Assembly: GCA_031177685.1 (NCBI GenBank)
Contig: JAPSGI010000003.1
Span: forward strand, 1 to 64,000
Direction: 5' to 3'
Source of the DNA: Solirubrobacteraceae bacterium
GTDB lineage: Bacteria > Actinomycetota > Thermoleophilia > Solirubrobacterales > Solirubrobacteraceae
DNA: 64,000 nucleotides
A program made the position numbers and the translations under genes. The notes beneath the pieces were generated by a model, which made no database searches, was not told where the DNA came from, and worked only from the letters and a program-made list of their open reading frames with translations. Each line of letters starts with the position of its first letter. Position 1 is the first letter of the stretch. This document shows, in pieces, positions 11,665 to 44,584 of this stretch.

Positions 11665-11684
11665 CGAAGCCGGCCGCGCCGCGG

Positions 11685-12557: not shown

Positions 12558-12616
12558 GCGGATCTAAACGATGCCAAAGCGCAAACGATTCGGCCTTTAG
12601 GGACACTCTTAGCGCT

Positions 12617-13735: not shown

Positions 13736-13747
13736 GCTAACCGCTCG

Positions 13748-14518: not shown

Positions 14519-14522
14519 CCGC

Positions 14523-15992: not shown

Positions 15993-16023
15993 ATTCCCCG
16001 GCTCGCCTCAGGCAGGCCACCCT

Positions 16024-26458: not shown

Positions 26459-27643
26459 ATGTCGATGAGCACTGTCGAAAGCACACGCGACGCTCCGCGC
26501 GAGCGGGGACCCGGTACGCCGCCGCGCGTCTCGGTGGTCATCCCGTGCCTGAACGAGGCCGAGACGATCGAGGAGTGCGTCCGGCGCGCACTCGCCGCCA
26601 TCGAGGCCGCGGGCGTCCCCGGCGAGGTGGTGGTGGCCGACAACGGGTCGGACGACGGCAGCGCGCAGCTGGCCGAGGCCGCCGGCGCTCACGTCGTGCA
26701 CGAGCCGCGCCGTGGCTACGGCAGCGCCTACCTCGCCGGCTTCGCGGCCGCCCAGGGCGAGTACATCGTGATGGCCGACGCCGACCTGACCTACGACTTC
26801 GGCTACCTCCCGCGCTTCGTCGCCGAGCTCGACAACGGGGCCGAGATGGTCATCGGCGACCGCATGGACAACATCCATCCAGGCGCGATGCCGTGGCTGC
26901 ACCGCTACGTCGGCAACCCGGTCCTGACCGGCACGCTGAACGCCTTCTTCCGCACGGGGATCAAGGACGCGCACTGCGGCATGCGGGGCTTTCGCCGCGA
27001 CGTGCTGCCGCGCCTGGACCTGCGGACCACCGGCATGGAGTTCGCCTCCGAGATGGTGATCCGGGCGGCCAAGGAGAAGCTGGACGTCCGGCAGTTCCCG
27101 ATCGAGTACCACCCACGTGGCGGGGAGTCCAAGCTCTCGAGCTTCCGCGATGGGTGGCGGCACCTGCGCTTCCTGCTCGTGCACAGCCCGACGCACCTGT
27201 TCATCATCCCCGGCGCGATCATGGCGGCGCTCGGCGTGCTCGCCGCCGCGGTGGTGCTGGCGCAGATCGACCTGTTCGGCCGCACGTGGGACCTCCACGC
27301 GATGGTCGCGGGGTGCCTGCTGATGGTCGTGGGGGTCCAGGTCCTGGCGCTGGGCCTGTGCGCCCACGCGTACGGCACCTACTTCATGGGCGAGCGCGAT
27401 CCCTGGTTCGATCGCATGCGCGCCCGCTTCCGCCTGGAGCACGGTCTGCTGCTGGGCGCCGGGATCGGCTTCACCGGCCTGGTCATCGCCGGCGTGATCG
27501 TGGGCATCTGGATCGACCGCGGCTTCGGCGACCTCTCAGAGGAGCGCCTCGCGGTGTGGGCCGCCACGCTGATCATCGTGGGGATCCAGGTCTTCTTCTC
27601 TTCGTTCTTGCTCTCGATCCTCGGTCTGCGCCGCCGCGACTAG
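26459..27643 (+). CDS. GT2 glycosyltransferase with C-terminal membrane domain
   Basis: A 394-residue DPM1-like enzyme. VSVVIPCLNEAETIEECV, VVADNGSDDGSAQLA, a glycine-rich RRGYGSAYLAGF and MADADLTYDF (metal site) occupy residues 20-115; HCGMRGFRRDVL and YHPRGGESKLSSFRDG are the acceptor motifs. Four hydrophobic helices follow from about residue 255. Such proteins load a sugar onto polyprenyl phosphate for use by membrane GT-C enzymes, two candidates for which are in this locus. Met3 is an alternative start. The final 108 bases overlap the large GT2 gene on the other strand, the longest convergent overlap in the window. Confidence 0.92.
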   Translation: MSMSTVESTRDAPRERGPGTPPRVSVVIPCLNEAETIEECVRRALAAIEAAGVPGEVVVADNGSDDGSAQLAEAAGAHVVHEPRRGYGSAYLAGFAAAQGEYIVMADADLTYDFGYLPRFVAELDNGAEMVIGDRMDNIHPGAMPWLHRYVGNPVLTGTLNAFFRTGIKDAHCGMRGFRRDVLPRLDLRTTGMEFASEMVIRAAKEKLDVRQFPIEYHPRGGESKLSSFRDGWRHLRFLLVHSPTHLFIIPGAIMAALGVLAAAVVLAQIDLFGRTWDLHAMVAGCLLMVVGVQVLALGLCAHAYGTYFMGERDPWFDRMRARFRLEHGLLLGAGIGFTGLVIAGVIVGIWIDRGFGDLSEERLAVWAATLIIVGIQVFFSSFLLSILGLRRRD

Positions 27644-30370
27644 CGGGGCGGCGGGCGGAGGCGACGGCAGCGCCCCCCGCCGCTGCCAGAAGTTCGGGAA
27701 GTAGGGGTCGCGCGGCAGCTCGGCCAGCCACCGCTGCTTGAACTCGGCGAGCTCGCGCAGCGAGGCGGCGCGCCCGCGGGCCGCGCCGGTCAACTCGAAC
27801 GTCGCGTCCGGGGCGAACACGGTCCGCAGGTCGCGCGACCGCGCGCGCAGGCAGTAGTCGGCCTCCGCGACGGGCGAGCGCGCCGGGCCGAGGCCGCCGA
27901 GCTCGAGGAACAGCTCCCGCGCAGTCATCATCACCCCGGCGACGGCGCAGTAGTTGCAGCTCACGACGAGGTTGCCCAGATACCCGACGAAATCGGACGG
28001 CACGGCGCGATAGACCGGTAGCGGAAGGCCTTCGCCGACCATCACGCCCGCGTGCTCGATGGTCCGGTCGGGGCGCAGCACCTTGGCGCCGACCGCGCCG
28101 ACGCCCGCCAGCTCGACGTGGCCCAGCAGAACGTCGAGCCATCCTCCGTCACGCGGGACGCACGGCTCGTCGAGCACCAGCAGGTGGCGGCCGTTCGCCG
28201 CACGGGCGGCGTCGTCCACGGACGCGTGGGCCTGCACTCCCAGGACCGTCGAGGGCGACCGCTCGCCGGCGACCAGGATCTCGAGCGCGCGGTGCCGCGT
28301 GCGCGCGGAGATGCCCTCGATCGAGGCTTGCAGCGCCGGCAGATCGTCCTGACCGTCCACCCGGACGATCACCGATACGGGCGTGTCGGGCCGGCTGCGG
28401 TGGACGACGCGGTACAGGCCCGGAAGCTCCGTGCGCTCGGCCGTGCCGGGGACCCCGGCCCGGTCGAGGTGAGACTGCAGCGCCCGCGTTCCGGCGTCGT
28501 AGGCGTAGGGCTTGGCCGCCGGGTTGATGGCGACGGACGCGTCGCTGGCGCGCCAGTGGTAGAGCACGCGGGGGACGTGGCGGATGCGCTGCGTGCGCTC
28601 GGCGATGCGCAGCATGAGGTCAAAGTCCTGAGCGCCGTCGAACTCGCTGCGGAAGCCGCCGACCTCCTCCATCAGGGTCCGCCGGTAGACGCCGAGGTGG
28701 CACGTGTACATCCCCGAGCGCAGCAGCTCGGGAGACCATCCGGGCTTGAGCATGGCGCCGAACCGGGTGCCGTCGGGCAGCAGGCGGTCCTCGTCGGTGT
28801 AGACGACGTCCGTGTCCGGGTGCTCGCGCAGGCACGCCGCGACCTCCTCCAGAGCGTCGTGCTCGAGCTCGTCGTCGTGGTCGAGCAGCGCGACGAACTC
28901 CCCGCGCGCCAGCTCCATCGCGGCGTTGGTCCCCGACGCGATGCCGCCGCCGTGCTCCCGGCGCACGAGCGCGATACGGTCGTCGCGCGCGGCGTGCTCG
29001 CGCAGCATCTCGACGACCTCGGGGTCGCGGCTCCCGTCGTCGGCGATGCACAGCTGCCAGCGCTCGTACGTCTGGGCGAGCACCGACCGGATCGCGCGCT
29101 CCAGGAAGCGCGGAGCCGGGTCGTGCACCGGCATGACCACGGAGATCGTGGGCGGTGGGACACGCGGCGCGCGCGCGGACGGTGCCGACGGAGCGCCGTC
29201 GCGGCCGGCGGGCACCGCGACGTCCGCCTCCTCCCACGCCACGGTCGGACGCGCGGAGGGGTCGCGCACCGGGTGGGCGGCGAGGACCAGCCGGCAGCCG
29301 TCCCCGCCCTCGCCGAAGTCCAGGTGCAGGACGGCCGCCGGCCCCGCGCTGTGCAGCTCGCCGGGATCGATCAGCGCGCAGTCGCCGGCCAGTTGCCGCC
29401 CGTCCGCGGCGAGCAGGGCGGCCTCGACGCGCGCGGGCTCCTTGCCGGCGCTCCAGCGCCCCGCCCTGATGCCCACGGGGAGCGAGAGCCGGCAGCCCGG
29501 CGGTGCGTCGATCCGGTACGCGATGCGCGACGGCGCCTCCTGCTCCAGGCGCCAGTCATCGCGGCCGCTGGCCTCGGAGACCTTGGTCCAGCGCGCGGGC
29601 TGGCCAAAGCGGTCGACCGCCTCCTCGACCGCCCAGTCCAGGCTGGAAAGCGGGATGCCCACGACCTCGGGGCCCTTGCCGCGCAGCTTGGCGCGCGCCC
29701 GCCGGGCGAGCGCGACGGCGCGCTGCAGCGGCTTGGTCAGGCGCCAGTAGGGGCTCGACCAGGTCGCATGCAGCTGCTCCGCCTGGTCGGCGAAGGCGGA
29801 CTCGAGAACCTCCGCGTAGCGCTCGCGCTGGAGCGCGACGGCCTCGAGCACGATCAGCCGGCCCTCCAGCTCGAGCACCCGGGGATCGCCGTCCGGCGCC
29901 GCCGCGCCGCGTTCGTGGGCCTGCCGCAGCGCGCTGCCGAGCGGGCGCTCGCAGACCACGAGGAGCGGCTCGTCGCCGGCCAGCGTCGCGAGCTCGACGT
30001 CACGCGACGTGATGCGCAGGAAGTTGTCGAGCGCCGCGCGGGGCGCGCCCCGCACCGCGCCCGCCACGAAGCAGGTGGGGAAGCCGCCGGGCAGCGGCGG
30101 GCTGAGCGCGTCCAGCAGCGCGAAGACGGCGTCGAGCTGGCCGAGCATCCGCTGCGAGTCGACGAGGACGACGTCCGCCTCGCCGGCCACCTCGGGCAGC
30201 GACTCCATCGGAGAGCGGCTGTCGTCGACCGCGCGCAGGGTCGTCTCGCCGGCACGAATTCGGTCGGCGAGCGCGTTCAGCGCAGGGCTGTCGCCGGGGC
30301 CCAGATAGACGATCGAGGCGGGGCGCAGCCGCTCCAGGATTGGCTCGAGAAGAGGCCAGCTGCGATGCAT
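27536..30370 (-). CDS. multidomain GT2 glycosyltransferase, 944 residues
   Basis: Residues 1-150 have a Rossmann-like pattern (IVYLGPGDSPALNALADRI, ADVVLVDSQRMLGQLDAVFALLDAL) reminiscent of a degenerate methyltransferase. A coiled-coil/linker with SSPYWRLTKPLQRAVAL follows, then a beta domain (about 240-390), then a GT2 domain with ISVVMPVHDPAPRFLERAI, IADDGSRDPEV, LLDHDDELEHDAL (DxD-like) and DFDLMLRIAERT. A second GT-A-like portion with VSVIVRVDGQDDLPAL and AEADYCLRAR completes the protein. The layout matches large O-antigen glycosyltransferases that often contain two GT2 units. The last 36 or so residues are charged and lie opposite the 3' end of the converging gene, so they may be a recent extension. 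It starts at a symmetric divergent promoter. Confidence 0.88.
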   Translation of the reverse strand: MHRSWPLLEPILERLRPASIVYLGPGDSPALNALADRIRAGETTLRAVDDSRSPMESLPEVAGEADVVLVDSQRMLGQLDAVFALLDALSPPLPGGFPTCFVAGAVRGAPRAALDNFLRITSRDVELATLAGDEPLLVVCERPLGSALRQAHERGAAAPDGDPRVLELEGRLIVLEAVALQRERYAEVLESAFADQAEQLHATWSSPYWRLTKPLQRAVALARRARAKLRGKGPEVVGIPLSSLDWAVEEAVDRFGQPARWTKVSEASGRDDWRLEQEAPSRIAYRIDAPPGCRLSLPVGIRAGRWSAGKEPARVEAALLAADGRQLAGDCALIDPGELHSAGPAAVLHLDFGEGGDGCRLVLAAHPVRDPSARPTVAWEEADVAVPAGRDGAPSAPSARAPRVPPPTISVVMPVHDPAPRFLERAIRSVLAQTYERWQLCIADDGSRDPEVVEMLREHAARDDRIALVRREHGGGIASGTNAAMELARGEFVALLDHDDELEHDALEEVAACLREHPDTDVVYTDEDRLLPDGTRFGAMLKPGWSPELLRSGMYTCHLGVYRRTLMEEVGGFRSEFDGAQDFDLMLRIAERTQRIRHVPRVLYHWRASDASVAINPAAKPYAYDAGTRALQSHLDRAGVPGTAERTELPGLYRVVHRSRPDTPVSVIVRVDGQDDLPALQASIEGISARTRHRALEILVAGERSPSTVLGVQAHASVDDAARAANGRHLLVLDEPCVPRDGGWLDVLLGHVELAGVGAVGAKVLRPDRTIEHAGVMVGEGLPLPVYRAVPSDFVGYLGNLVVSCNYCAVAGVMMTARELFLELGGLGPARSPVAEADYCLRARSRDLRTVFAPDATFELTGAARGRAASLRELAEFKQRWLAELPRDPYFPNFWQRRGALPSPPPAAPLVAAAQTEDREQERREEDLDPHDDQRGGPHREALL

Positions 30371-30458: not shown

Positions 30459-31115
30459 ATGCTGAAGCGGATCTCGCCTGTGACGGCAGCGGTGGCGCTC
30501 GGCCTCCTGCTGGCGATCTTCGCGCTCGTCGCCGTGCTCGCGCAGCGCGGGACTCGGCTGGCGGCCACCAACACGCTCGTCGACATCAGCGGCGTCGCCC
30601 TGCCCGTGGCGCCGGGCCAGCAGCGCTGCAGCCGCGAGTACGTGCCCGGGGGCGCCGACCGGGTCCGCATCTACGCGAGCGCCTTCGCCCCGCGCGGGCA
30701 GCCGGTCGCGGTGACCGTCCACCGCGGCGGGGAGCAGGTCTCCGCGGGACGGGTCCCCGGCGGGTATCCGAACAACTCGATCCTGCTGGTCCCGTTGCGG
30801 CCCGTGACCCGCAGGCTCGACCCCGCCCGCGTGTGCGTGCGCAACCTCGGGTCCCGCCGGGCGCGCTTCGCCGGGAACCGCACGTCGGGGGGTCCCAATC
30901 CGTCCCCGCGCGTGCATGGCGAGGAAGCGATCCGGTTCGACTGGCTGCTCCCGGGCCGTCCGGCGTGGGCGGACCTCGCGCCGAAGATCGCGACGCGCTT
31001 CGCGGCCGCGAAGCCGACGTTCGTCGGGGCCTGGACGTTCTGGGCGCTCGGCGCGGTCCTGCTCGTGCTGTGGGCCGCGACGATCGCCCTCGTGGTGCGG
31101 GAGGCGCGCCGATGA
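30459..31115 (+). CDS. bitopic membrane protein of the polysaccharide locus, unknown function
   Basis: A 218-residue protein with one hydrophobic helix at residues 10-28 and another near 190-212, leaving about 160 residues outside. The external part is beta-rich (RVRIYASAFAPRGQPVAVTVHRGGEQVSAG) with two cysteines and looks like a small sandwich domain. I recognise no named family. It is coupled by ATGA to the DUF2142-type membrane protein, a pairing that suggests a subunit or partner of that enzyme, perhaps gripping the glycan or lipid carrier outside the membrane. Confidence 0.8.
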   Translation: MLKRISPVTAAVALGLLLAIFALVAVLAQRGTRLAATNTLVDISGVALPVAPGQQRCSREYVPGGADRVRIYASAFAPRGQPVAVTVHRGGEQVSAGRVPGGYPNNSILLVPLRPVTRRLDPARVCVRNLGSRRARFAGNRTSGGPNPSPRVHGEEAIRFDWLLPGRPAWADLAPKIATRFAAAKPTFVGAWTFWALGAVLLVLWAATIALVVREARR

Positions 31116-32590
31116 GCCGGCTCCGGCGCCTTGGCCTCGGGGCTCGACGCGTGCCGCGCGCGTGCCTGGCGTGCGCGGCGATCGCCTTCGTCAACGCGGG
31201 CGTCTGGGCCGTGATCACCCCGCCCTTCCAGGTTCCGGACGAGATCGCGCACGTGACCTACCTGCAGTACATGGTGGAGTGGGGCGAGTTGCCGGGCGGC
31301 ACGCCCCACGGGCCCAACAACACGTCCGACGAGATGAGCGCGGCGGCCGCGTCCGTGCCGTTCAGCGCCAACGCCCAGAATCCGACGTGGTCGCCGCGCA
31401 ACCTGCGCGAGTACCGTCGTGTCCAGCCACGGCTCGACCGGCGGCCCGGATCGGTCCCGCCCGCGGCGGTCAACAACCCGCCCCTCTATTACGTCGTCCA
31501 GGCGTTGCCCTACCTCGCCACTCGCGACGTGGACGCGTTCGATCGCCTCCTGCTCCTGCGCCTCGTCTCCGCGCTGCTCGCCGCGGTCACCGTCGCGGCG
31601 ACGTTCCTGTTCGTCCGCGAGCTGCTTCCGGGGCGTCCGTGGGCCTGGACCGTCGGCGCGCTGGCCGTCGCGTTCCAGCCGATGTTCGGCTTCATGTCCG
31701 GGGGCGTCAACAACGACAACCTCCTCTACGCGCTCGGCGCCGTCCTCGCGTACCTGGTCGCCCGGATCATGCGCCGCGGGCTGACCCCCGGCCTGGCCGC
31801 GGCCCTCGCGCTCGTGTCGCTCGCCGGCATGCTGACGAAGACGAGCTTCGCGGGACTGCTGGGAGGTGCCGCCTTCGGAGTCGTCGTGGCCATCGCGCGG
31901 ATGCCCGCGCCGGCGCGCCGCCGCGCCGCGCTGGTCGCGGGTGTCGCCGCCGTCGCCTTCGTCGTGCCCTTCGGCGCGTGGCTCGTGGCCAACCAGGAGG
32001 TGTTCGGCCGCGCGGCGTCGACGACGACGGGCGGTTTCGTGTCCTCCGCGACGACCGACGTGACGACGCTGCGGGGACATCTCTCCTACATCTGGCAGGT
32101 GTTCCTCCCGCGCCTGCCGGGGATGCAGACCTTCATTCCGACGTCGGGCGCGTATCCCCTGTGGGACACGTTCATCCAGGGCTTCGTCGGGCGCTTCGGC
32201 TGGTGGCATTTCGGCTTCCCGCTGTGGGTCAACCAGCTGGCGCTCGGGATCTACGTCGCCGTGGTCGGGCTGGCCGGGGCGGGGCTGTACCGGGCGCGAG
32301 CGGCCCTGCGTCGCCGGTGGGCGGAGCTGCTGACCTTCGCGCTGATCGCGGCCGGCTACGTGATCCTCGTGGAGGTCGCCGCCTACCGCTATCAGGCCGT
32401 GCACCTGCAGGCGTTCGAGCAGGCGCGCTACCTGCTGCCGCTGCTGCCGTTCTACGGCGGGCTGGTCGCGGTCGCGGCGACCGCCGGGGGCCGGCGGTGG
32501 GGACCGGCGCTCGGCGCCTTCCTCGTGGTCCTCGCCATGACGCACTCGCTGTTCGCGATGCTGCTCGTCATCGGCCGCTACTACGCGTAG
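31112..32590 (+). CDS. DUF2142-type polytopic membrane protein (GT-C-like)
   Basis: A 492-residue integral membrane protein with about ten helices. After the first helix comes ITPPFQVPDEIAHVTYLQYM, the DUF2142 hallmark, with acidic residues in the first external loop as in protein O-mannosyltransferases and arabinofuranosyltransferases. NNPPLYYVVQALPY and AFQPMFGFMSGGVNNDNLLY are further conserved loops. It probably transfers a sugar from a polyprenyl-phosphate donor onto the glycan outside the membrane; the DPM-like gene at 26.5 kb could make the donor. ATGA overlap with the upstream small membrane protein fixes the start. Confidence 0.87.
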   Translation: MSRLRRLGLGARRVPRACLACAAIAFVNAGVWAVITPPFQVPDEIAHVTYLQYMVEWGELPGGTPHGPNNTSDEMSAAAASVPFSANAQNPTWSPRNLREYRRVQPRLDRRPGSVPPAAVNNPPLYYVVQALPYLATRDVDAFDRLLLLRLVSALLAAVTVAATFLFVRELLPGRPWAWTVGALAVAFQPMFGFMSGGVNNDNLLYALGAVLAYLVARIMRRGLTPGLAAALALVSLAGMLTKTSFAGLLGGAAFGVVVAIARMPAPARRRAALVAGVAAVAFVVPFGAWLVANQEVFGRAASTTTGGFVSSATTDVTTLRGHLSYIWQVFLPRLPGMQTFIPTSGAYPLWDTFIQGFVGRFGWWHFGFPLWVNQLALGIYVAVVGLAGAGLYRARAALRRRWAELLTFALIAAGYVILVEVAAYRYQAVHLQAFEQARYLLPLLPFYGGLVAVAATAGGRRWGPALGAFLVVLAMTHSLFAMLLVIGRYYA

Positions 32591-32603
32591 ACGTGGAGTG
32601 AGG

Positions 32604-34187
32604 GTGAGCGTCGCGCGCCGCCTCCGCCGAAGCGCCGCCGCCCGCGCGCGCTATGCCCGGTTTCGCGCGCAAGTGGAGCCCGCGCTCCTGCGCAGCCCGC
32701 ACGTGCACCGGTTCGCCGAGGTCCCCGCGCCGCTGGCGGCGGCGGCGCCTGTGGCGCTCGGCGTCGCGATCGACGTCGATGCTGAGGCGGACGCCTCGCA
32801 CACCCACGCCTCGCTGGAACGCCAGTCCGTCGCGCCGGCGGCGGTGACCGCGGCGCGCGGCACGGAGGCGCTGGCCGCATCCGCGACCGGCTGGCTCGTC
32901 CTCGTGCGCGCCGGCGACACGCTCGCCCCCCGCGCCCTGGAGACCCTCGGCCGCGCGGTCGCCGCCGCGCCGGACGCCGCGCTGGTCACCTGCGACGAGG
33001 ACCGCCTCGATCGCCGCGGGCGCCGCGTGGATCCGGTCTGCCGGCCGGGGCCCTCGCCGGACTTCATGCTGGCCCGCGACCTGGGCGGGGCCCTGATCGC
33101 GGTGCGGCGCGAGGCTGCGCTCGCCGCCGCGCCCCCCGCCACGCCGGCCTGGCGCCGCGAGCTGGCGCTCGCGCTCGCGGGGCCGGACGGCGCCGGCCAC
33201 GCCCATGTGCCCGCGATCCTCTGCCACCGCGGCGGCTCGGCCTCCGAGCGCGACGATCGCGCCGAGCTCGCGGCGGTCGAGCGCGTCCTGCGCCGATGGG
33301 GCGACGTCGCGGCGCGCGTCGAGGCGGTGGGGCCGGGGCGCCAGCGCGTGGTGCGCCGCCTGGACGGCGAGCCGTCGGTCGAGGCGATCGTCTGCTTCCG
33401 CGACCGGCCCGACCTGCTGCGGCGCTGCGCCGAGTCGTTTTTGAGCCGGACCGTGTACGACCGGCTCGCCCTGCGGCTCGTGGACAACGGCAGCGCGGAC
33501 CCCGAGGTCGCCGCGCTGCTGGCCCGCCTGAGCGAGGATCCCCGCGTGACCGTGGAGCGCGATCCCCGCCCGTTCAACTTCTCCGCGCTCAACAACGCCG
33601 CGGCGGCGCGGTCGCGAGCGGACTTCCTCGTGTTCCTCAACAACGACGTGGAGATCACCGCGGAGACCTGGGTGCAGGAGCTGCTGTCCGAGGCGGCGCG
33701 GCCCGAGGTCGGCGCGGTGGCGCCGCTGCTCGTCTACGAGGACGGCCGCGTGCAGCACGCCGGCGCCGCCATCGGGCTGCACGGCTACGCCGGTCACCCG
33801 TTCGCCGGGCTGCGCCCCGGGACGCAGACTCCGTTCGGGACCGCCACGGACGGGACGCGCAACTGGCTCGCGGTGAGCGCGGCCTGCCTGATGGTGCAGC
33901 GGCGCAAGTTCGACGCGGCCGGCGGTTTCGACGAGGGCTTCGCGATCGGGGGCGGCGACGTGGACCTCTGCCTGCGCCTGACCGCCGCCGGGCAGCGCTC
34001 GCTGTGCGTGCCGCACGTGCGCCTGCGCCACGACGAGTCCGCCTCGCGCGACCCGCGCGACCTGCCGGCCGGCGACTTCGAGCGCTCGCGCGAGCGCTAC
34101 GGGGCCTTTCGCACCGTCGGCGATCCCTTCTACAACTCCAACCTGACGCTCGACGACACCACGTGCGCGATGCGCGAGGCGCCGTGA
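32604..34187 (+). CDS. GT2 glycosyltransferase with N-terminal extension
   Basis: The C-terminal 270 residues form a GT2 domain: VEAIVCFRDRPDLLRRCAESFL, LRLVDNGSADPEVAALL, FNFSALNNAAAARSRADFLVFLNNDVEI (metal site) and GGFDEGFAIGGGDVDLCLRL. The N-terminal 240 residues contain a degenerate GT-A-like segment (WLVLVRAGDTLAPRALETLG, LVTCDEDRLD). This resembles rhamnosyl- or galactofuranosyltransferases with two GT2 halves. A GTG two codons earlier also exists; I chose the one with GGAG 5 bases upstream. The stop overlaps the next gene's GTG. Confidence 0.88.
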   Translation: MSVARRLRRSAAARARYARFRAQVEPALLRSPHVHRFAEVPAPLAAAAPVALGVAIDVDAEADASHTHASLERQSVAPAAVTAARGTEALAASATGWLVLVRAGDTLAPRALETLGRAVAAAPDAALVTCDEDRLDRRGRRVDPVCRPGPSPDFMLARDLGGALIAVRREAALAAAPPATPAWRRELALALAGPDGAGHAHVPAILCHRGGSASERDDRAELAAVERVLRRWGDVAARVEAVGPGRQRVVRRLDGEPSVEAIVCFRDRPDLLRRCAESFLSRTVYDRLALRLVDNGSADPEVAALLARLSEDPRVTVERDPRPFNFSALNNAAAARSRADFLVFLNNDVEITAETWVQELLSEAARPEVGAVAPLLVYEDGRVQHAGAAIGLHGYAGHPFAGLRPGTQTPFGTATDGTRNWLAVSAACLMVQRRKFDAAGGFDEGFAIGGGDVDLCLRLTAAGQRSLCVPHVRLRHDESASRDPRDLPAGDFERSRERYGAFRTVGDPFYNSNLTLDDTTCAMREAP

Positions 34188-35464
34188 ACCGCAAGCGCGC
34201 CCGCCACATCGCCCGGACGGTGCGCCAGGGCCCCGGCGAGGCCCTGTACGCGGCGCTGCGGGCGCGCCGCCGCCGGCGCAACGTCGCCGACGACGAGCTC
34301 GAGCTGCTGGAGTCCGACGCGCTGGCGCTGTCCGGGCTCTTCGAGCTGGAGCCGGCGGACCTGGAGGCCAACGCGCGCATCCTGCGCGAGCAGGCGGCGC
34401 GCGACGGGCTCGACGTGCGCACGGTCCAGTGGTTCTTGCCCTGGTTTCACCTCGTGCACGGGGGCGGCGTCCACACCGTCCTGCGCTTCGCCGACCACTT
34501 CGCGCGCGAGCACGGCGTGGAGAACCGCTTCGCGGTGTACGACCGCGACGCCGGCGCGGCGGCGCGCGACGTGTCGGCCAAGATCGGACGCGCCTTCCCC
34601 GCGCTGGCGAGCGCGCCGGTCACCGCCGGCCCCGCGCCGCCGGGCGAGGCCGACGCCGCCATCGCCACCGCGTGGCCCGGCGCATACCCGCTCGTGCGCT
34701 TCGGGCGCACGCGCGCCAAGTTCTTCCTCGTCCAGGACTGGGAGCCCGACTTCCACCCGGCCGGCTCGGCCTCCGCGCTGCTGGAGCAGGCGGCGCGGTT
34801 CGGGATCCCGGGCCTGGTGAACACGCCCGGGCTGGCCGAGGCCTACCGCGCCCACGGCAACCCCGCGGTCGCCTTCCGTCCCGCGCCCGACGCGCGCTAC
34901 GCGCCGCCCGCGAGCCCCCGGCCCGGCACGCCCGTACGCGTCTTCTTCTACGGGCGCCCGAGCGTCGCGCGCAACGCGTTCGGCCTCGGGCTGGCCACCC
35001 TGCGCCGGGTCAAGCAGGCGCTCGGCGACGGCGTCGAGATCGTGTGCGCCGGCGAGGACTGGAGCCCCGGCCAGTACGGCGTCGCCGACGTGCTCACCAA
35101 CGCGGGGATGCTGGAGGACCCCGACGCCGTCGCGCAGCTGTACCGCCGCTGCCACGCCGGCCTCGTGTTCATGCTCACCCGCCACCCCTCCTACCAGCCG
35201 CTGGAGTGGATGGCCAGCGGCATGGTGACCGTGACCAACGAGAGCCCGCACACCGCCTGGCTGCTGCGCCACGACGAGAACGCCCTCCTCGCCCCGCCGC
35301 TCCCGGCCCTGGTCGCCGAGCAGGTCATCCGCGCCGCCACCGACCCCGCCCTGCGCGACCGCATCGCCACGGCCGGCCTCGCCACGGTGGCAGACCTCGA
35401 GTGGCCGGCCGAGATCGACCGCGTCTACGCCGCCATGACCAAGCGCGGCGAGACCTTCGTCTAG
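34184..35464 (+). CDS. WsaF-like glycosyltransferase (GT4 type)
   Basis: A 426-residue GT-B enzyme. WFLPWFHLVHGGGVHTVLRFADHFA contains the N-terminal glycine loop; FFLVQDWEPDFHPAGSASALLEQA and PVRVFFYGRPSVARNAFGLGLATL, then GLVFMLTRHPSYQPLEWMASGMVTVTN, match the WsaF-type rhamnosyltransferases that build surface glycans, including the shortened donor-site motif instead of the classic E-x7-E. The first 80 residues are basic and helical. GTGA overlap with the GT2 gene indicates a coupled pair that may act in succession. The TAG stop shares CTAG with the converging small gene. Confidence 0.85.
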   Translation: MNRKRARHIARTVRQGPGEALYAALRARRRRRNVADDELELLESDALALSGLFELEPADLEANARILREQAARDGLDVRTVQWFLPWFHLVHGGGVHTVLRFADHFAREHGVENRFAVYDRDAGAAARDVSAKIGRAFPALASAPVTAGPAPPGEADAAIATAWPGAYPLVRFGRTRAKFFLVQDWEPDFHPAGSASALLEQAARFGIPGLVNTPGLAEAYRAHGNPAVAFRPAPDARYAPPASPRPGTPVRVFFYGRPSVARNAFGLGLATLRRVKQALGDGVEIVCAGEDWSPGQYGVADVLTNAGMLEDPDAVAQLYRRCHAGLVFMLTRHPSYQPLEWMASGMVTVTNESPHTAWLLRHDENALLAPPLPALVAEQVIRAATDPALRDRIATAGLATVADLEWPAEIDRVYAAMTKRGETFV

Positions 35465-35943: not shown

Positions 35944-36804
35944 CTAGAGCTGCTCGGCGATCTGCGGGGCCTGGCGCTCGAACACGACGAACCCCAGGAT
36001 GCAGATCCCCAGGAAGACCCCCGTGGGGATCAGCAGCCACGGCAGGCCGCCGATCACGTCGAAGGCGCCCTGCGTGCTGGGGTCCACGACCCAGCGGCGG
36101 ACCTGCTGGAGCAGGTCGGCGATCGGGTTGGCCAGCGCCACGCGCTGGAAGTCCTCGGGCACCTTGTCGATCGGGTAGAGCACCGGCGTGGCGTAGAACA
36201 GCGCGGTCGACAGCACGGCCCAGATCGGCGACACGTCGCGGAAGCGCACGTACAGCGACGACAGGATCATCGCCGCCCCCGCGGTGAGCAGGATTAGCGG
36301 GATCAGGATCAGCGGCAGCAGCAGCCACGTCCAGCGCGGGTCCACGCCGTAGGCGACCAGGAACACGAACACCGCGACGAGGTTCACCAGCATCGTGAAC
36401 GTGGCGGTCAGGACGCACGACAGCGGGATCACGATGCGCGGGAAGTGCATCTTGCGCACGATCTGCTCGTTCTCCACGACCGCGGTCACCGAGCGCGTCG
36501 CGGCGTCCGCGAAGAAGCTGAACAGCACGATGTTCAGCAGCAGGAGCACCGGGTAGTTGCGCACGTCCTCGCCGAACTTCAGGACCTGGCTGAACACCAC
36601 GTAGAGCACGCCGAACAGCATCAGCGGCCGCATCAGCGACCACAGGTAGCCCAGCGCCGAGCCGAAGTACGTGAGGCGGTACTCGGTCAGCCCGATCATC
36701 CACGTCAGGTAGAGGAAGCGCCGCAGGCCGCCGCCGAAGGCGGAGGGACCGCGGATCTCGCGCGCCTCCGGCGAGAGCGGGAACGTCGCCTCGGTCGCGC
36801 TCAT
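35944..36804 (-). CDS. wzm: polysaccharide ABC transporter permease
   Basis: A 286-residue ABC-2-type permease with six hydrophobic helices beginning near residue 50 (LGYLWSLMRPLMLFGVLYVVF). FGEDVRNYPVLLLLNIVLFSFFADAATRSVTAVVENEQIVRKMHFPR is the coupling and interhelical region characteristic of Wzm/TagG. With the ATPase encoded immediately upstream it exports a finished, lipid-linked polysaccharide across the membrane. The ATG overlaps the TGA of wzt (ATGA), giving stoichiometric translation. Confidence 0.94.
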   Translation of the reverse strand: MSATEATFPLSPEAREIRGPSAFGGGLRRFLYLTWMIGLTEYRLTYFGSALGYLWSLMRPLMLFGVLYVVFSQVLKFGEDVRNYPVLLLLNIVLFSFFADAATRSVTAVVENEQIVRKMHFPRIVIPLSCVLTATFTMLVNLVAVFVFLVAYGVDPRWTWLLLPLILIPLILLTAGAAMILSSLYVRFRDVSPIWAVLSTALFYATPVLYPIDKVPEDFQRVALANPIADLLQQVRRWVVDPSTQGAFDVIGGLPWLLIPTGVFLGICILGFVVFERQAPQIAEQL

Positions 36805-38015
36805 GTGACGCGCTCCATCTCGCGCTCCACCCGCATCGTGTGAGGCAGCGAGACCAGCCCGGATCCCGTCGTGCCGCCGAACACCACGAATTCGCACGCG
36901 CGACCGCGGAAGGCGATCATGCCGCGCTCCGCGCCGTGGAGGCTGCAGTCGACGAAGTAGCGCCCGTCGCCCAGCGCGTTCTCGGACGTCATCCGCACGA
37001 CGATGCGCTCGCCGGGCAGGAACGGCTCGTCGTCGTTCGCCGCGACGGCGCGCGAGGTCGCGCCGAACACGTTGAGCACCTCGTCGGTGTTGAAGGCGAA
37101 GTGGACGTCGGGCCGGTCGATGCGCTCCCGGACGTCCAGCAGCGCGCAGACGCTGAACGGCTCGCCGTGCGCCACCGCCGGGACGCGCTTGCCCTCGGCG
37201 TCCTCGATCCACACGTCGGCGACGTCCGCGGCGTCGCCGCCCTCGGACTGCGCGCCGGGTACCTCGGCGCGGCGTTCGAAGTTGAGCTCGAGGTAGCGGC
37301 GCCCCACCTCGTGCGCGTCGCCGGACATCTCCACGAGCCCGTCCTCGAGCAGCAGCACGCGGTGGCAGAAGCGCTCGATCATCCCCGTGTCGTGCGTGAC
37401 GAGGACGATCGTGCGGCCCTCCTCGCGCAGGCGGTAGAAGACGTCCAGGCACTTCTGCTGGAACGACGCGTCGCCGACCGCGAGCACCTCGTCGATCAGG
37501 AGCATCTCGGCGTCGGAGTGCACCATCAGCGAGAAGGCCAGGCGCACCTGCATCCCCGACGAGTAGTTCTTGAGCTTGAGGTCGAGGAAGTCCTCCAACT
37601 CGGCGAAGGCGATCACCTCGTCGAAGCGCCCGCGCGCCTGCGCGGGGGAGAGGCCCATCATCACCCCGTTGATGACGACGTTGTCGTGCGCGGTCAGGTC
37701 GGGGTTGAACCCCACGCCCAGCTCGATGAACGGCGCCAGGCGCCCTGCGATGCGGATCTCGCCCTCGTCGGCGCGGTAGATGCCCGCCAGGCACTTCAGC
37801 AGCGTGCTCTTGCCCGAGCCGTTGCGCCCGACGATCCCGAAGAACTCGCCCTCGCGGACCTGGAACGAGATCCCGCGCAGAACGCGCAGCTCGTCGAACT
37901 CCGCGCGCCGAAAGGGATGCAGCGCGCGCTCCTTGAGGGTCATCATGTGCTGGCGGGGGACGCGGAACGTCTTGCGCAGGTTCCGCACGTCCACCGCCGC
38001 GTGCGGGGCGGGCAT
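36801..38015 (-). CDS. wzt: polysaccharide ABC transporter ATPase with C-terminal glycan-binding domain
   Basis: A 404-residue ATPase. The nucleotide-binding domain (1-250) has GRNGSGKST (Walker A), NYSSGMQVRLAFSL (signature), MLLIDEVLAVGD (Walker B) and VTHD (H-loop). Residues 265-400 form a beta-sandwich Wzt C-terminal domain (VADVWIEDAEGKRVPAV, HFAFNTDEVLNVFGATSR). In O9a-type systems this domain recognises the modified non-reducing end of the completed chain, so export here is probably linked to a terminating modification. TAGCCT 8 bases before the ATG, without Shine-Dalgarno, suggests a leaderless wzt-wzm message. Confidence 0.95.
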   Translation of the reverse strand: MPAPHAAVDVRNLRKTFRVPRQHMMTLKERALHPFRRAEFDELRVLRGISFQVREGEFFGIVGRNGSGKSTLLKCLAGIYRADEGEIRIAGRLAPFIELGVGFNPDLTAHDNVVINGVMMGLSPAQARGRFDEVIAFAELEDFLDLKLKNYSSGMQVRLAFSLMVHSDAEMLLIDEVLAVGDASFQQKCLDVFYRLREEGRTIVLVTHDTGMIERFCHRVLLLEDGLVEMSGDAHEVGRRYLELNFERRAEVPGAQSEGGDAADVADVWIEDAEGKRVPAVAHGEPFSVCALLDVRERIDRPDVHFAFNTDEVLNVFGATSRAVAANDDEPFLPGERIVVRMTSENALGDGRYFVDCSLHGAERGMIAFRGRACEFVVFGGTTGSGLVSLPHTMRVEREMERVT

Positions 38016-38023
38016 GTGCGGGA

Positions 38024-38029
38024 AGGCTA
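38024..38029 (-). promoter_or_regulatory. -10 element (TAGCCT) of wzt-wzm
   Basis: The hexamer ends 8 bases before the wzt ATG on the minus strand. The divergent HAD gene starts 40 bases away and has a weaker TAATGC 8 bases ahead of its ATG. Confidence 0.5.
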
Positions 38030-38055
38030 CCGACCGGCCTGTAATGCTTTTCGCG

Positions 38056-40650
38056 ATGTCCACCCGCCTGGAGACGCCGCCGACCGGCGGCGACGCGCGT
38101 CTGGCGCCCGCTTTCGAGGCGCTCGGCGCGGGCCGCGTCAAGGCGCTGTCGGTCGACGTCTTCGACACGCTGCTGTTCCGCCGCGTCGCCGAGCCGGTCG
38201 ATGCCTTCGGGCTGATCGGCGAGCGTCTGCGCGCGCGCGGCGCCCTGGCCCCGGGGACGACGCCGGCAGTGTTCGCGCGGGTGCGCGAGGAGGCCGAGGA
38301 CCGCGCGCGCTGCGCGCGTCGCGACGCCGGCGATGGCGTGGAGGTCACGCTGGCGGAGATCCACGCGCTGCTGCCGCGCGCGCTGTTCGCGCGCGGCGCC
38401 GACCCCGCCGCCTCCCTGGAGGCCGAGCGCGCCGTGGAGGCAGAACTGCTGGTGCCCGACCTCGACGTGGTGGCGCTCCTGCAGGCCGCCGCGCAGCGCG
38501 GGCTCGCGCTCGCGGCGATCTCGGACACCTACTTCTCCGAGCGCGACCTGCGGCTGTTCATCGCGCGCGGCGCGCTGGCGGGCGTGCGCCTGGACCGCGT
38601 GTTCGCCTCGTCGGAGTACCGCACGGGCAAGGCGACGGGCCTGTTCAGCATCGTGCTCGAACAGCTCGGCCTCGCGCCGCGGGAGCTGCTGCACGTGGGC
38701 GACAACCACGAGTCCGACATCGCGTCCGCGCGCCGCCTGGGCATCGACGCCGTCTACTTCGAGAAGCGCACGCCCGCGCTGGCGCGGATCCTGGAGCGCG
38801 AGCGGCTCCACCTCCCTCCCGAGCCGGCGACCGACGGCGCCACGGCCGCGCTGCGCGGCAAGGTGCTGCACCGCGACGAGGCGGAGCGCCAACCCGCGGG
38901 GCTGCGTTCCTTCTGGGAGTTCGGCGCCGCCACGCTGGGGCCGGCCTTCGCCGGGTTCGCCGACTGGGTGCACCAGCAGGCCGGCGAGCTGGACGTCTCC
39001 AAGGTCTTCTGCCTGATGCGCGAGGGCGAGCTGCTCTCCGCGCTGGTCAACGCCGCGGGGCGCACCGGCGTGACGGCCGAGCCGCTGTGGCTCTCGCGCC
39101 ACGTGTGCGCGCGCGCGTCGATCCGCGAGGGCACCGTGCAGGAGCTGGAGGCGCTGTTCGCGCGCCGCGACATGCCGACCGTGCGCGAGTTCCTGTCGTC
39201 GCTCGGCGTGTCCCTGGACGAGCTGCCCGCCTTCGCCTCCGTCGCCGACCGCCGCGTCGACGACCGGGCCCTCGGCGACGAGGTCGTGGACGCCATCGTG
39301 TTCGATCCCGAGCTGCGCGCGCGCGTCGTCGCGCGCTCGCTGGAACTGCGCCGGCGGCTGCAGCGCTACGTCGAGGCGCGCCTGGCGCCGGGCGAGTCGC
39401 GCCTGGTGCTGGTCGACCTGGGCTGGGGCGGGACGATCCAGGCCATGGCCGAGGCGCTGCTGCGCGAGAGCGGCGTGGAGTGCACCACCGCCGGCCTGTA
39501 CGTCGTCACCAACCACGTGGCGCTCGACCGTGCGCTGGAGGGCCTCGACGTGCGCGGGTTCGTGGGCGACTACGGCGTCCCGGAGACGACGATCGCGGCC
39601 ATCGGGCGCAGCCCCGAACTGCTCGAGCAGGTGTGCATGCCCGACTGCGGGACCCAGCTCGGCGTGACCGAGGAGCTGCAGCCGGTGCTGGCCGAGCCGG
39701 GCGAGATGTCGCTGCAGAGCGTGGAGCGCGCCGCGGTGCAGCAGGGCATCCTCGCCTTCCAGCGCGAGTGGGTGCGCTACCGCGGCGCCGGCGCGCGCGA
39801 GCTGTCGCTGACTGCCGGGGAGGTGCGCCCGCGACTGCTGGCCTCGGTGGCGCGCGCGGTGACCGCGCCCACGCCGGAGGAGGTGCCGCTGTTCGCGCGC
39901 TGGCTGCACGACGAGAACTTCGGCTCGGAGCGCATCGAGTCGATCGCCGCCGGCCCGAGCGTGAAGGCGCTGGGGCACATGGACCCGCGCGCGCTCATGA
40001 AGGTCCCGATGACCGAGCTGTACTGGCCGTTCGGGCTGGCCGGCATGCACGACGAGCACCTCGCCGGCGCGCTGGCCGCCGCGGCCGCCGGCACGCTGCC
40101 GTGGGACACGTTCTCCTCGTCGCTGGAGATCGGGAGCTTCGAGATCGAGGGCGACTTCGGGTGGGGCTTCGAGGACCGGGCGAAGGGCACGATCGCGCCG
40201 CGGCGCAACCGCCGCGGGCTCTCGTATGCGCGCGCGACCGTGCGCGGGGAGTTCGTCCAGCGCCTGCGGCTGCGCCCCGCCCGCCGTCCGTGCCTGCTGC
40301 GCTTCGACTGGGTCCGCGTGCGCTGCCGGCTGCACGGTGGCGGCACGGCGACGGTCGACCTCGACGCGCCGGACGACTTCGGGCGCCTGCGGGTGGCGGG
40401 CGCCCACTGGGTCGCGCCCGGCCTGCTGATGGTCACGAGCGGCAACCCGCGCCTGGTGCTCGACCTGCGCCGGCTGGCCGGCGAAAAGGTCTACGAGGCG
40501 GTCGTGGACGTCGGCTTCGCCGCGCTGGCGCTGCCCCACACCCAGGCGCGCGAGCGCTGGGGCCGCGCGAAGGACTGGCTGCGCCACGTGGCCAAGGACA
40601 CCAAGGCCGGCGCCCCGCTGCGCGCGCTGCGCCGCCTCGTGCGACGCTGA
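38056..40650 (+). CDS. large HAD-type protein of glycan loci, 864 residues
   Basis: Residues 25-230 form a HAD domain: VKALSVDVFDTLLFRR with the nucleophile Asp, AAISDTYFSE (motif II), and LHVGDNHESDIASARRLG (motif IV). A long middle region (250-680) contains VFCLMREGELLSALV, PLWLSRHVCARASI and VLVDLGWGGTIQAMAEALL, and about 170 C-terminal residues are beta-rich and may bind sugar. This architecture is seen next to ABC-exported polysaccharides, but the biochemical role is not established; phosphate removal from, or phosphoglycan transfer to, the chain end is plausible given the adjacent Wzt. A further ATG four codons upstream exists. Confidence 0.85.
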   Translation: MSTRLETPPTGGDARLAPAFEALGAGRVKALSVDVFDTLLFRRVAEPVDAFGLIGERLRARGALAPGTTPAVFARVREEAEDRARCARRDAGDGVEVTLAEIHALLPRALFARGADPAASLEAERAVEAELLVPDLDVVALLQAAAQRGLALAAISDTYFSERDLRLFIARGALAGVRLDRVFASSEYRTGKATGLFSIVLEQLGLAPRELLHVGDNHESDIASARRLGIDAVYFEKRTPALARILERERLHLPPEPATDGATAALRGKVLHRDEAERQPAGLRSFWEFGAATLGPAFAGFADWVHQQAGELDVSKVFCLMREGELLSALVNAAGRTGVTAEPLWLSRHVCARASIREGTVQELEALFARRDMPTVREFLSSLGVSLDELPAFASVADRRVDDRALGDEVVDAIVFDPELRARVVARSLELRRRLQRYVEARLAPGESRLVLVDLGWGGTIQAMAEALLRESGVECTTAGLYVVTNHVALDRALEGLDVRGFVGDYGVPETTIAAIGRSPELLEQVCMPDCGTQLGVTEELQPVLAEPGEMSLQSVERAAVQQGILAFQREWVRYRGAGARELSLTAGEVRPRLLASVARAVTAPTPEEVPLFARWLHDENFGSERIESIAAGPSVKALGHMDPRALMKVPMTELYWPFGLAGMHDEHLAGALAAAAAGTLPWDTFSSSLEIGSFEIEGDFGWGFEDRAKGTIAPRRNRRGLSYARATVRGEFVQRLRLRPARRPCLLRFDWVRVRCRLHGGGTATVDLDAPDDFGRLRVAGAHWVAPGLLMVTSGNPRLVLDLRRLAGEKVYEAVVDVGFAALALPHTQARERWGRAKDWLRHVAKDTKAGAPLRALRRLVRR

Positions 40651-41612: not shown

Positions 41613-42668
41613 TCAAGCGCTCCTCTTCAACGCGCGGATGGCGCGCTTGCCGCTGCGTAGCGGACGCGTGATCTTCCACGAGACCGAGCCCTCGATGTCG
41701 CGAATCGCCTTCGCGGCCGCGCTCAACTGCTCCGTCAGGTCGGCGGACCGAGTGATCAGCTCGCGATTTTCCTCTTCTGCCGAGCGCAGCTCTGACTGAA
41801 CGTCGGCGAGCACGGTTTCGGACTGCACAAGCTCCACGAGGAGGTTCGAACGGTCTTCGACCGAGCGACATGCCGCCTCTAAGGCCGTTGCCTGCTCCTC
41901 CAAAAGTTGCTGCTGTGCGGCGAACCGCTTTACCCATTCCTCGATTTCGATCGGTGCGGCGAGCGTCAGCAGGGGGGTGATGTCCGGTAGCGAGCCGTTC
42001 GTGGCGGCAGCGATCGTGTACGTCTCCTCTCCTGGGCCCTTCTGGACAAGCTGATGGACCGGCAGGTTTCCCCTCGGCCCTGCGGTGCGAGAATCGCTCG
42101 AGGGCAGAATCGTCGACGCTACGAAGTTGTGCTGCTGGAGCAGCGACACGGTCGTCCAGCGCTCCGATAGCGCGCTGCGGAGCTCTTCCGCGGTGTACTC
42201 GTGCAAGTGATGCGGATTGCCGGGTACGTAGACTCCCCGGTTCGGAGAGGAGATCAGAAGGACTCCTCCCGGGGCGAGCACACGCTTCATCTCGTCGAGT
42301 GCCTCTTGCTGCCGATCGAGGTGCTCGATGACCTCGAAGCATGTCACCAGATCAAAGGCCGCATCCTCGAAGGGCAGACTCCGCACGTCCGCGACGCAGA
42401 AGTCGACGGACGAGGCATTGCTGTGGGCGGCGTGGATCACGTCGTCTGCGATGTCGACGGCCGTCACAGCCGCGGCCCCGGCGTCGGCGAGCATGACGGC
42501 TCCATAGCCGATCCCGCACCCAGCGTCCAGCACTCGACGCCTCGAAGCCACGAACGAAGCCCACTGGTAGCGCGTCAGGTGCTCGGCCTCGACCAACCGA
42601 CCGTGCATCTCGTCGGGTACGAATCGACCGGGCGTTCCGTCGATCAGGTCCGCAAGCTCACTTGGCAT
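41613..42668 (-). CDS. class I SAM methyltransferase with C-terminal coiled coil
   Basis: A 351-residue protein. RRVLDAGCGIGYGAVMLADAG (motif I), VTAVDIADDVI, FDLVTCFEVIEHLDRQQEAL (motif II) and LAPGGVLLISSPN form the methyltransferase; HHLHEYTAEEL is typical of glycan O-methyltransferases. From about residue 230 to 330 follows a coiled coil rich in Glu, Ala and Leu, ending with a basic SWKITRPLRSGKRAIRALKRSA tail common in membrane-associated glycan enzymes. Third-position A/T is clearly more frequent than in neighbours, hinting at transfer. TACGAT 6 bases before the ATG suggests a leaderless message. Confidence 0.88.
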   Translation of the reverse strand: MPSELADLIDGTPGRFVPDEMHGRLVEAEHLTRYQWASFVASRRRVLDAGCGIGYGAVMLADAGAAAVTAVDIADDVIHAAHSNASSVDFCVADVRSLPFEDAAFDLVTCFEVIEHLDRQQEALDEMKRVLAPGGVLLISSPNRGVYVPGNPHHLHEYTAEELRSALSERWTTVSLLQQHNFVASTILPSSDSRTAGPRGNLPVHQLVQKGPGEETYTIAAATNGSLPDITPLLTLAAPIEIEEWVKRFAAQQQLLEEQATALEAACRSVEDRSNLLVELVQSETVLADVQSELRSAEEENRELITRSADLTEQLSAAAKAIRDIEGSVSWKITRPLRSGKRAIRALKRSA

Positions 42669-42674
42669 CGCGCA

Positions 42675-42718
42675 ATCGTAGACATGCGCTGAAAAGAAGG
42701 GGAACGATCTCCTACAAT
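42675..42718. promoter_or_regulatory. divergent -10 elements of the transferred glycan-enzyme pair
   Basis: Minus strand: TACGAT (42680-42675) ends 6 bases before the methyltransferase ATG. Plus strand: TACAAT (42713-42718) ends 9 bases before the glycosyltransferase GTG. The 59-base intergenic region is AT-richer than its surroundings. Confidence 0.5.
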
Positions 42719-42727
42719 GCCGCGCTC

Positions 42728-44584
42728 GTGGAGCTCGCCTTCGTCCTTGCCCGCGGACAGAATCTCTTCTTCGTCGAGCTCGTCGCGGCGCTGCGAGCGG
42801 AGCTTGAACGCCTAGGGGTCGATACGAGCGTCCATATGGGCGTCTTCCCACCTGCGCGCTCGGACCTCGTCTACGTCCTCGTGCCGCCACACGAGTACTT
42901 CACCCTCACGGAAGGGCGGCCCGAGCCGCCCCCCAGCGTACTGGCGCGAAGCATCTTCGTATGCGCCGAGCAGCCCGGCACTCCCTTCTTCGACCGAAAC
43001 GTCCAGCTGGCCCCCCGTGCTGGAGCGGTGTTCGACATCAATCGGCTCGCGGTCCGAGCTATGAAGGCGGCCGAGATCGACGCTGAGCACCTGCAAGTCG
43101 GCTGGGCCTCGACGTGGGACCACTTCGAGGGCTCGGAACGCGACATAGACGTCCTCTTCATGGGCGCCGCGACTGAGCGTCGACTCGAGCATTTGAGCAG
43201 CTACGTCTCTCATCTGTGGGACTACCGCTGCCACTATGTGATTTCCGACAACTCGCTCCCTAATGCGGCGCCCTCCGATTCGTTTGTGAGCGGCGACGAC
43301 AAGTGGAGCCTCCTCAGCCGTAGCCGTGTGCTGATCAACCTCCATCAAGCCACGGCTTCGTACTTCGAGTGGCTCCGCGTTGTTCAAGCGATGGCCAGCG
43401 GGTGTGTCGTCGTAAGTGAGACATCGGTCGGCTACGAACCGCTGCAGCCCGGACAAGACCTGCTTTTCGGACGCCCGGAGACGCTTGGCCTGCTTGCGCA
43501 GCACGTACTCGAAGACGAAAGAACCGAGACCGAGCTGCGCCACCGTGCGTATCGCACTCTGCGCGAGAAGCTGCCGCTTCGTGAGTCGGCCGAGGCTCTC
43601 GCCTCTGCGGGGCGCAGGATCGCCGAGCAGCCCATCGAATGGACCCCCTGGTTCTCGAAGCAGCGTCCACTGTCCGAGAGGGACGTCGAACGGACGCTGC
43701 AGCGCTTTCGCCCAAGTCACGACCACCCATCGGATGACGTACGCCGGGTGCTGAAGGATCTGAAGCTGGATCTGATCGACATGCGGCGAGCGATCAGCCG
43801 GTTGTCGAGGGCACAAGACGACTCGGGCATGGCGGAACTCGAAGTGCACCGCCGATCGACTGGCTGGCTCGGCGCAACGCCCCGCGTTACGGTCCTGGTC
43901 TCCGTCTACAACTACGCGGCTTGCGTCACGCGGGCGCTCGATTCTTTGCTTCGAAGCCGGTGTCGATCATGGGAGGTCGTGATCGTGGACGACGGGTCTT
44001 CCGACGAGTCGCTCGACACTGCCTCGGATTGGATCTCGCACCACGACACCGCTCCCGCAACCCTGCTCCACCATCCGGTCAACCGTGGGCTTGCGTTGAC
44101 GCGCAATGCTGCGACCGCTTTTGCCCGCGGTGAGTTCTGTTTCATCCTGGATGCCGACAACGAGATCTACCCCAACTGCCTTGAGCGGCTGATCTATACC
44201 CTCGAGCAGAACCCGCGTGCCGCATTCGCGTACGGGATGCTTGAGCAGTTCACGGATTCCGGACCCGTCGGACTGATGAACGTCTTTCCCTGGGAGCCGT
44301 CGCGGTTCGCCGAGCGCAACTACATCGACGCCATGGCCCTGATCAGGACGAAAATCTTGCGTACCGTCGGGGGTTACCGGGCCGACCCCCGGCTCTACGG
44401 CTGGGAGGACTATGACCTCTGGTGCCGGATGGCCGAGCAAGGGATGTGGGGTGCGCATCTACCGTCTGTCGTGGCCCGCTACCGCGTGAGCGAGAACTCC
44501 ATGCGCAGCGTCACGGACATCTCCGTCGCCGACGTCCGGTCGCTGATCGCCGAGGGCAGCCCGACGGTGATGGCGGGGGTCTGA
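42728..44584 (+). CDS. two-domain glycosyltransferase (GT-B-like plus GT2)
   Basis: A 618-residue protein. Residues 1-300 form a GT-B-like domain (LARGQNLFFVELVAALRAEL, VLINLHQATASYFEWLRVVQAMASGCVVVSE, GRPETL) of the kind that reads glycan or lipid acceptors. Residues 390-610 are a GT2 domain with VTVLVSVYNYAACVTRALDSL, VVIVDDGSSDESLDT, FILDADNEIYPNCL and GWEDYDLWCRMAEQG. GTG start with TACAAT upstream. Codon use shows many A/T-ending codons (for example CTT, GAA, AAT) unusual for this window. With the divergent methyltransferase it looks like a small transferred glycan-modification cassette between ctaA and msrB. Confidence 0.88.
   Translation: MELAFVLARGQNLFFVELVAALRAELERLGVDTSVHMGVFPPARSDLVYVLVPPHEYFTLTEGRPEPPPSVLARSIFVCAEQPGTPFFDRNVQLAPRAGAVFDINRLAVRAMKAAEIDAEHLQVGWASTWDHFEGSERDIDVLFMGAATERRLEHLSSYVSHLWDYRCHYVISDNSLPNAAPSDSFVSGDDKWSLLSRSRVLINLHQATASYFEWLRVVQAMASGCVVVSETSVGYEPLQPGQDLLFGRPETLGLLAQHVLEDERTETELRHRAYRTLREKLPLRESAEALASAGRRIAEQPIEWTPWFSKQRPLSERDVERTLQRFRPSHDHPSDDVRRVLKDLKLDLIDMRRAISRLSRAQDDSGMAELEVHRRSTGWLGATPRVTVLVSVYNYAACVTRALDSLLRSRCRSWEVVIVDDGSSDESLDTASDWISHHDTAPATLLHHPVNRGLALTRNAATAFARGEFCFILDADNEIYPNCLERLIYTLEQNPRAAFAYGMLEQFTDSGPVGLMNVFPWEPSRFAERNYIDAMALIRTKILRTVGGYRADPRLYGWEDYDLWCRMAEQGMWGAHLPSVVARYRVSENSMRSVTDISVADVRSLIAEGSPTVMAGV

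Follow-up and report, generated by a model that had tools for sequence, protein, structure and literature searches.

The protein encoded at 38056-40650 is very probably an actinobacterial bipartite PRPP-dependent ribofuranosyltransferase, as judged from its sequence and a structure model, and we consider it highly likely that this predicted two-step enzyme helps to build the polysaccharide exported by the adjacent Wzm/Wzt pair. The window, i.e. the whole stretch of 64,000 nucleotides analysed here, comes from a Solirubrobacteraceae bacterium. Within it the frame is intact (plus strand, ATG at 38056, stop codon ending at 40650, no internal stops), and the gene is present as a single copy in the window genome. 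Near-full-length, stop-free homologues occur in other genomes, the nearest with 46-49% identity, and the frame is therefore more than a chance ORF. A gap of 40 bases (38016-38055) separates its start from the start of wzt, from which it diverges. The enzyme and the neighbours that bear on its role are as follows.

27536..30370, minus strand: family 2 glycosyltransferase, 944 aa (Pfam)
31112..32590, plus strand: DUF2142 membrane protein (Pfam)
32598..34187, plus strand: family 2 glycosyltransferase (Pfam)
34184..35464, plus strand: WsaF-type glycosyltransferase (Pfam)
35944..36804, minus strand: Wzm, ABC-2 type permease, with a 4-base overlap with wzt (Pfam)
36801..38015, minus strand: Wzt, ABC ATPase with a Wzt_C terminus-binding domain (Pfam)
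38056..40650, plus strand: HAD phosphatase-glycan phosphoribosyltransferase, 864 aa, a predicted ribofuranosyltransferase (profile, model and structure matches)
41613..42668, minus strand: class I methyltransferase with a C-terminal coiled coil, a candidate chain terminator (Pfam and heptad test)
42662..44584, plus strand: glycosyltransferase with Glyco_trans_1_2 and Glycos_transf_2 matches (start uncertain; Pfam scan from 42728)

The original prediction held that the divergent partner is a Wzt with a chain-end-binding domain, and matches to ABC_tran and Wzt_C (PF14524, E 6.6e-17) bear this out. The presence of Wzm, Wzt and several glycosyltransferases around the enzyme supports a role in the local polysaccharide, for which context alone is no proof, since the neighbouring genes change from one lineage to the next. 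Nucleotide-sugar genes (GDP-mannose dehydratase, UDP-sugar dehydrogenase, epimerases) and a WecG/TagA transferase lie at 1565-19617, and a Wzx-like flippase (14523-15992) shares the window with Wzm and Wzt. The DUF2142 gene has counterparts near 23 of 79 homologue loci among the matches listed. Directly 3' of the enzyme, on the same strand and despite its unrelated function, stands a CtaA/COX15-type haem A synthase gene (40656-41606) whose ATG at 40656 is five bases past the enzyme stop. A scan of 37900-38200 for sigma-70 promoters and terminators found none.

The protein had been described as a HAD phosphatase-like domain followed by a large uncharacterised central region and a beta-rich end. 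The first and last of these parts stand. PF00702 is the best Pfam match (residues 84-229, 31.3 bits against a cut-off of 26.4), and the elements of residues 695-825 are mostly strands. The middle region is nameless in Pfam and NCBIfam, where searches with the enzyme returned HAD matches only, and PHROGs gave no match, yet it is covered by two solved structures, 7shg from Thermobacillus and Bcs3 from Haemophilus influenzae type b (Hib). We thus arrive at the following layout.

38131..38805, plus strand: HAD half, residues ~26-250, phosphoribose phosphatase-like, with D34, S156, K192, D216 and D221 present
38842..39975, plus strand: gPRT/CriT-like transferase half, residues ~263-640, with R322, E323, S347, R348, D454 and E524 present
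40126..40533, plus strand: C-terminal beta-sandwich, residues ~691-826, kept in relatives and without a family or PDB sequence match
40543..40644, plus strand: basic C-terminal helices, residues ~830-863, of low confidence (model)

Two kinds of evidence lead us to regard both halves as being of the CrpP-CriT kind. First, phmmer with the single protein as query already found 7shg (E 2.5e-9) and Bcs3 (E 5.8e-9) in the PDB, and a 56-row profile raised these matches to E 1e-41 for 7shg and E 1.6e-38 for the CrpP-CriT part of Hib Bcs3. The 7shg chain aligned to the profile in two stretches, 25-252 (HAD) and 318-637 (transferase; i-Evalue 1.7e-17). The alignment comprises the window protein and 55 of 82 homologous ORFs; the 27 others were left out by choice, being mainly near-duplicates, with some short ends and one sequence with N, and two weak second copies (55-56 bits; at loci L052 and L093) had been removed ahead of the selection. 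Secondly, an AlphaFold2 model built with this alignment reached a pLDDT of 91.3 and a pTM of 0.90, and its first eight Foldseek hits were all Bcs3 or 7shg chains. By VIA-align the model fitted Bcs3 (8a0c) with Z 25.3 (rmsd 6.3, 582 aligned, model residues 26-671) and 7shg with Z 25.2 (rmsd 13.1, 521 aligned); the best entry beyond these two was a HAD protein with Z 17.3, and no single HAD domain exceeded that value. A model from the single sequence (pLDDT 38.9) was discarded. Structure prediction of the middle region, suggested earlier as a check, is thus confident, and the fit of both catalytic halves to ribofuranosyltransferases speaks for a phospho-sugar transferase.

The catalytic positions are largely those of the characterised proteins. 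In Bcs3, according to PMC10299916, CriT moves ribofuranose-5-phosphate from PRPP and CrpP strips the 5-phosphate; the catalytic or substrate-binding residues named there are D386 and K548 for CrpP, and S678, R679, D680, S707, R708, R712, E818, T825 and S884 for CriT, with E874 as the proposed base, and D680 and E818 are said to be conserved across all homologues considered in that paper. By profile alignment D34 corresponds to the nucleophile D386 and K192 to the motif III lysine K548, and in the transferase half R322, S347 and R348 correspond to R679, S707 and R708. Both acids are kept with their type exchanged (E323 for D680, D454 for E818), and 7shg likewise has E and D at these positions. 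S678, R712 and T825 are replaced by M321, A352 and I461 in the profile alignment. E524 would be the counterpart of E874, and T533 that of S884. Conservation over the 56 rows is nearly complete, with D34 in 55, K192 in 56, D216 in 55 and D221 in 56 on the HAD side, and R322 in 55, E323 in 54 and R348, D454 and E524 in all 56 on the transferase side. One Thermoleophilaceae MAG has a second copy (L030:17440-19890) that carries D34E, S156C, D216E, R322G and E323S in an open frame adjoining wzt, and on its sequence this copy is possibly a pseudoenzyme. Tandem copies, with starts chosen by us, were seen at L026:9944-15242 and L042:9998-15279, where some 30 bases separate them or their ends overlap a little, and at both loci the ten key residues are intact in both copies.

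Bipartite ribofuranosyltransferases have been described only recently, and the protein is informative without being a new principle. With Thermobacillus composti 7shg it shares both halves, HAD first and gPRT second; the two proteins differ in that the halves appear, in the model, to be set at another angle (rmsd 13.1), and in that the 648-residue 7shg chain has no counterpart of the beta-sandwich, which lies past its matched end (residue 632 of 648). With Bcs3 (8a0c, 9h50) it shares the CrpP and CriT folds, the nucleophile, the lysine and several PRPP-pocket positions. Bcs3 differs in its extra CroT ribitol-phosphate transferase and SH3b polymer-binding domain (PMC10299916), where our profile did not align and in place of which the window protein has the beta-sandwich. 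By description, it also resembles the separate gPRT-PRP proteins of Klebsiella O4 and O7 (ORF5-O4, ORF7-O7; PMC11231755), which serve a Gram-negative LPS O antigen, and Campylobacter jejuni Cj1432, in which a HAD phosphatase likewise precedes a PRPP-dependent ribosyltransferase but an N-terminal GT4 domain and a four-helix bundle are added (PMC12096443).

The C-terminal part folds as a beta-sandwich in the AlphaFold2 model (residues ~691-826) and is filled in all 56 rows with 127-170 residues each. A profile of this stretch (25 rows including the window) found no credible chain in the PDB (best E 0.11) and no credible Pfam family, and hhalign found no likeness to the Wzt_C of the window's own Wzt (probability 0.1). 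The structure search says little on the sandwich because HAD domains fill the match list, and its fold may well be known already. Since accessory parts differ among the known members, we do not take it as defining a new type of enzyme.

According to our proposal the gPRT/CriT-type half would, by homology and by the residues kept, act in the cytoplasm and transfer beta-D-ribofuranose-5-phosphate from PRPP to the nascent chain at its non-reducing end. The HAD half at the N terminus (PRP/CrpP type) would then take off the 5-phosphate, whereupon the next glycosyltransferase could extend the chain. The beta-sandwich may, as a guess, bind either the acceptor chain or a partner protein. The terminal mark for Wzt_C would be written by another protein.

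The original prediction had favored a different role, in which the enzyme adds or removes the terminal signal that Wzt reads. In its most explicit form, the enzyme would end each completed chain with one ribose or phospho-ribose as a cap recognized by Wzt_C. The idea draws on the 40 bases between the enzyme and a wzt that carries Wzt_C, and on the Klebsiella O4 and O12 systems, where the signal is a sugar cap (Kdo; PMC11231755). It also draws on co-occurrence, since all eight enzyme genomes in the window's order have Wzt_C. These are eight of 151 genomes searched at E 1e-10, and Wzt_C was found in 104 of the same 151 at E 0.001 (101 above cut-off); as two thirds of all the genomes carry Wzt_C anyway, the complete overlap is weak evidence that the two are linked. 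It is the part of the result that fits the original prediction, but 96 of the 104 genomes with Wzt_C in this draw lack the enzyme.

The wider set of homologue loci speaks against the capping role as well. Our 79 loci stem from one scan seeded with nine relatives and are biased to this branch; many end early, and 49 of the 79 among the matches listed retain flanks longer than 9 kb to the left and to the right. Within the flanks available, 36 of the 79 loci among the matches listed have a Wzm/ATPase pair and 12 a Wzt_C-like ORF. Within the 49 long-flank loci among the matches listed, the pair is found in 22, a Wzt_C-like ORF in 9 and a Methyltransf_24 (MT24, PF13578) ORF in 46. These Wzm, Wzt, Wzt_C and MT24 counts rest on home-made profiles and stop-to-stop ORFs, so that divergent genes may escape and gene distances are lower limits. 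Whole genomes were searched for a hand-picked set of 29 (30 loci chosen), comprising 19 without a local Wzm, 5 of the GlfT2-linked type and 5 with a local Wzt_C; Wzt_C matches were found in 1 of 19, 0 of 5 and 5 of 5, respectively, leaving 23 of the 29 homologue-bearing genomes without one. An Actinomadura Wzm query at E 0.01 gave no match in 17 of 18 genomes without a local Wzm, where other ABC exporters are possible, and at the stricter 1e-15 it matched 1 of the 19. The original prediction had implied that homologues should not lie mainly in genomes without ABC export; outside the window's order they partly do, which counts against it.

Klebsiella O4 provides a comparison. Its O antigen is ABC-exported and employs a gPRT-PRP enzyme, with a similar gene set that includes Wzm and a Wzt with a predicted terminus-binding module; the ribose lies inside the repeat unit, and the terminal Kdo is written by a different protein, which has a coiled coil at its C terminus, a feature consistently found in terminators (all PMC11231755). 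In the window's enzyme our home-made heptad test found no coil-like stretch, with no eligible 49-residue stretch to serve as a coiled-coil ruler of the kind seen in the WbdD, WbbB and ORF7-O4 type terminators, and the longest helix in the confident model has 31 residues (281-311). Together, the counts and the Klebsiella comparison make a capping role improbable.

The original prediction had also offered a phosphoglycan transferase, and this comes close: a phospho-sugar, ribofuranose-5-phosphate, would be transferred to the glycan, and on sequence the HAD half would then remove the phosphate. Two further alternatives fare worse. Were the HAD half idle or regulated, the glycan would retain ribose-5-phosphate and become a phosphoglycan. 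The product of the first step carries the phosphate, and Campylobacter Cj1432 is slower in its phosphatase step (PMC12096443), but the HAD motif residues that we looked at are all present in the window protein, and we regard such retention as very unlikely. Least probable of all is that the enzyme produces a lipid-linked donor from which ribose would be added outside the membrane, since, although the three-component system with polyprenyl phosphoribose synthase also fuses a HAD-type PRP domain to a PRPP-using partner (PMC11127046), that partner (Citrobacter ORF15 type, set apart here by description only) is a membrane-embedded protein, whereas the partner half in the window matches CriT/gPRT by profile and structure.

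If the enzyme is a ribofuranosyltransferase that acts during polymer building, the terminal signal would come from elsewhere. Among the matches listed, an MT24 ORF (search seeded from two loci; e.g. L064:12591-13709) is found in 70 of the 79 loci, in 68 of them within 400 bases of the enzyme as measured to stop-to-stop ORFs. A coil-like 42-residue stretch is present in 51 of the 70 MT24 ORFs among the matches listed, and 19 fail the home-made threshold; the control ORFs among the matches listed gave none (Wzm 0/38, Wzt 0/46, GLF 0/22, GlfT2 0/27, DUF2142 0/23). The test is our own, with our own thresholds and in two versions; in the first, 0 of 500 shuffles equalled the MT24 of L064 and 36 of 500 that of L029. 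The placement and the coil are the layout of known chain terminators, and by analogy MT24 is a candidate for this function. In the window's order MT24 matched 38 of 151 genomes, namely each of the 8 enzyme genomes (weakly in that of the window) and 30 of 143 without it, and in four enzyme-free loci that we picked it lies within ~7 kb of a Wzt and a Wzm that are 42-54% identical to those of the window.

MT24 was rejected as a terminator for the window itself, from which it is absent at E 1e-3; its sole relative in the genome is weak and belongs to a different contig (C13:3316-3918, 37% over query residues 40-246). The methyltransferase at 41613-42668, for which 1 of 500 shuffles did as well in the heptad test, is a better terminator candidate than the enzyme and would be the best local candidate for the writer of the terminal signal. 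Relatives of it occur in 2 of 79 loci at E 1e-8 and 1 of 79 at E 1e-15 among the matches listed, and in two of the four enzyme-free loci. We tentatively suggest that in Actinomycetota the enzyme and a coiled-coil methyltransferase may form a polymerase-terminator pair as in Gram-negative O antigens, with galactofuranan-like wall glycans among its targets and also in genomes in which a terminus-reading Wzt was not found, and that the window genome would have swapped this methyltransferase for a different coiled-coil one; this is a possibility that we would not yet favor.

The loci of other genera may widen the range of glycans concerned. A UDP-galactopyranose mutase gene is near the enzyme in 22 of the 79 loci among the matches listed, all of them from Actinomadura, in a row of UDP-galactopyranose mutase, GlfT2, Wzm, Wzt, enzyme and methyltransferase (L050, L054, L055, L061-L065 and 14 more); DUF2142 was found in 8 of these 22 loci among the matches listed. 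Five further loci among the matches listed, from Williamsia, have a GlfT2-like gene. The Actinomadura gene row suggests a ribose-bearing galactofuranan, and more generally that ribofuranose may be placed on galactofuranan-like glycans in the GlfT2-linked loci. In the open-access library searched we found nothing relevant on ribofuranose or galactofuran in Actinomadura or actinobacteria.

In conclusion, the presented analysis gives a so far anonymous "HAD hydrolase" family of Actinomycetota a predicted and testable role as the ribose-adding component of a polymerase. It predicts that various actinobacteria have ribofuranose in their surface or wall glycans, and the coiled-coil methyltransferase so often encoded next to the enzyme points to a possible system of chain-length control that could be tested in culturable genera.
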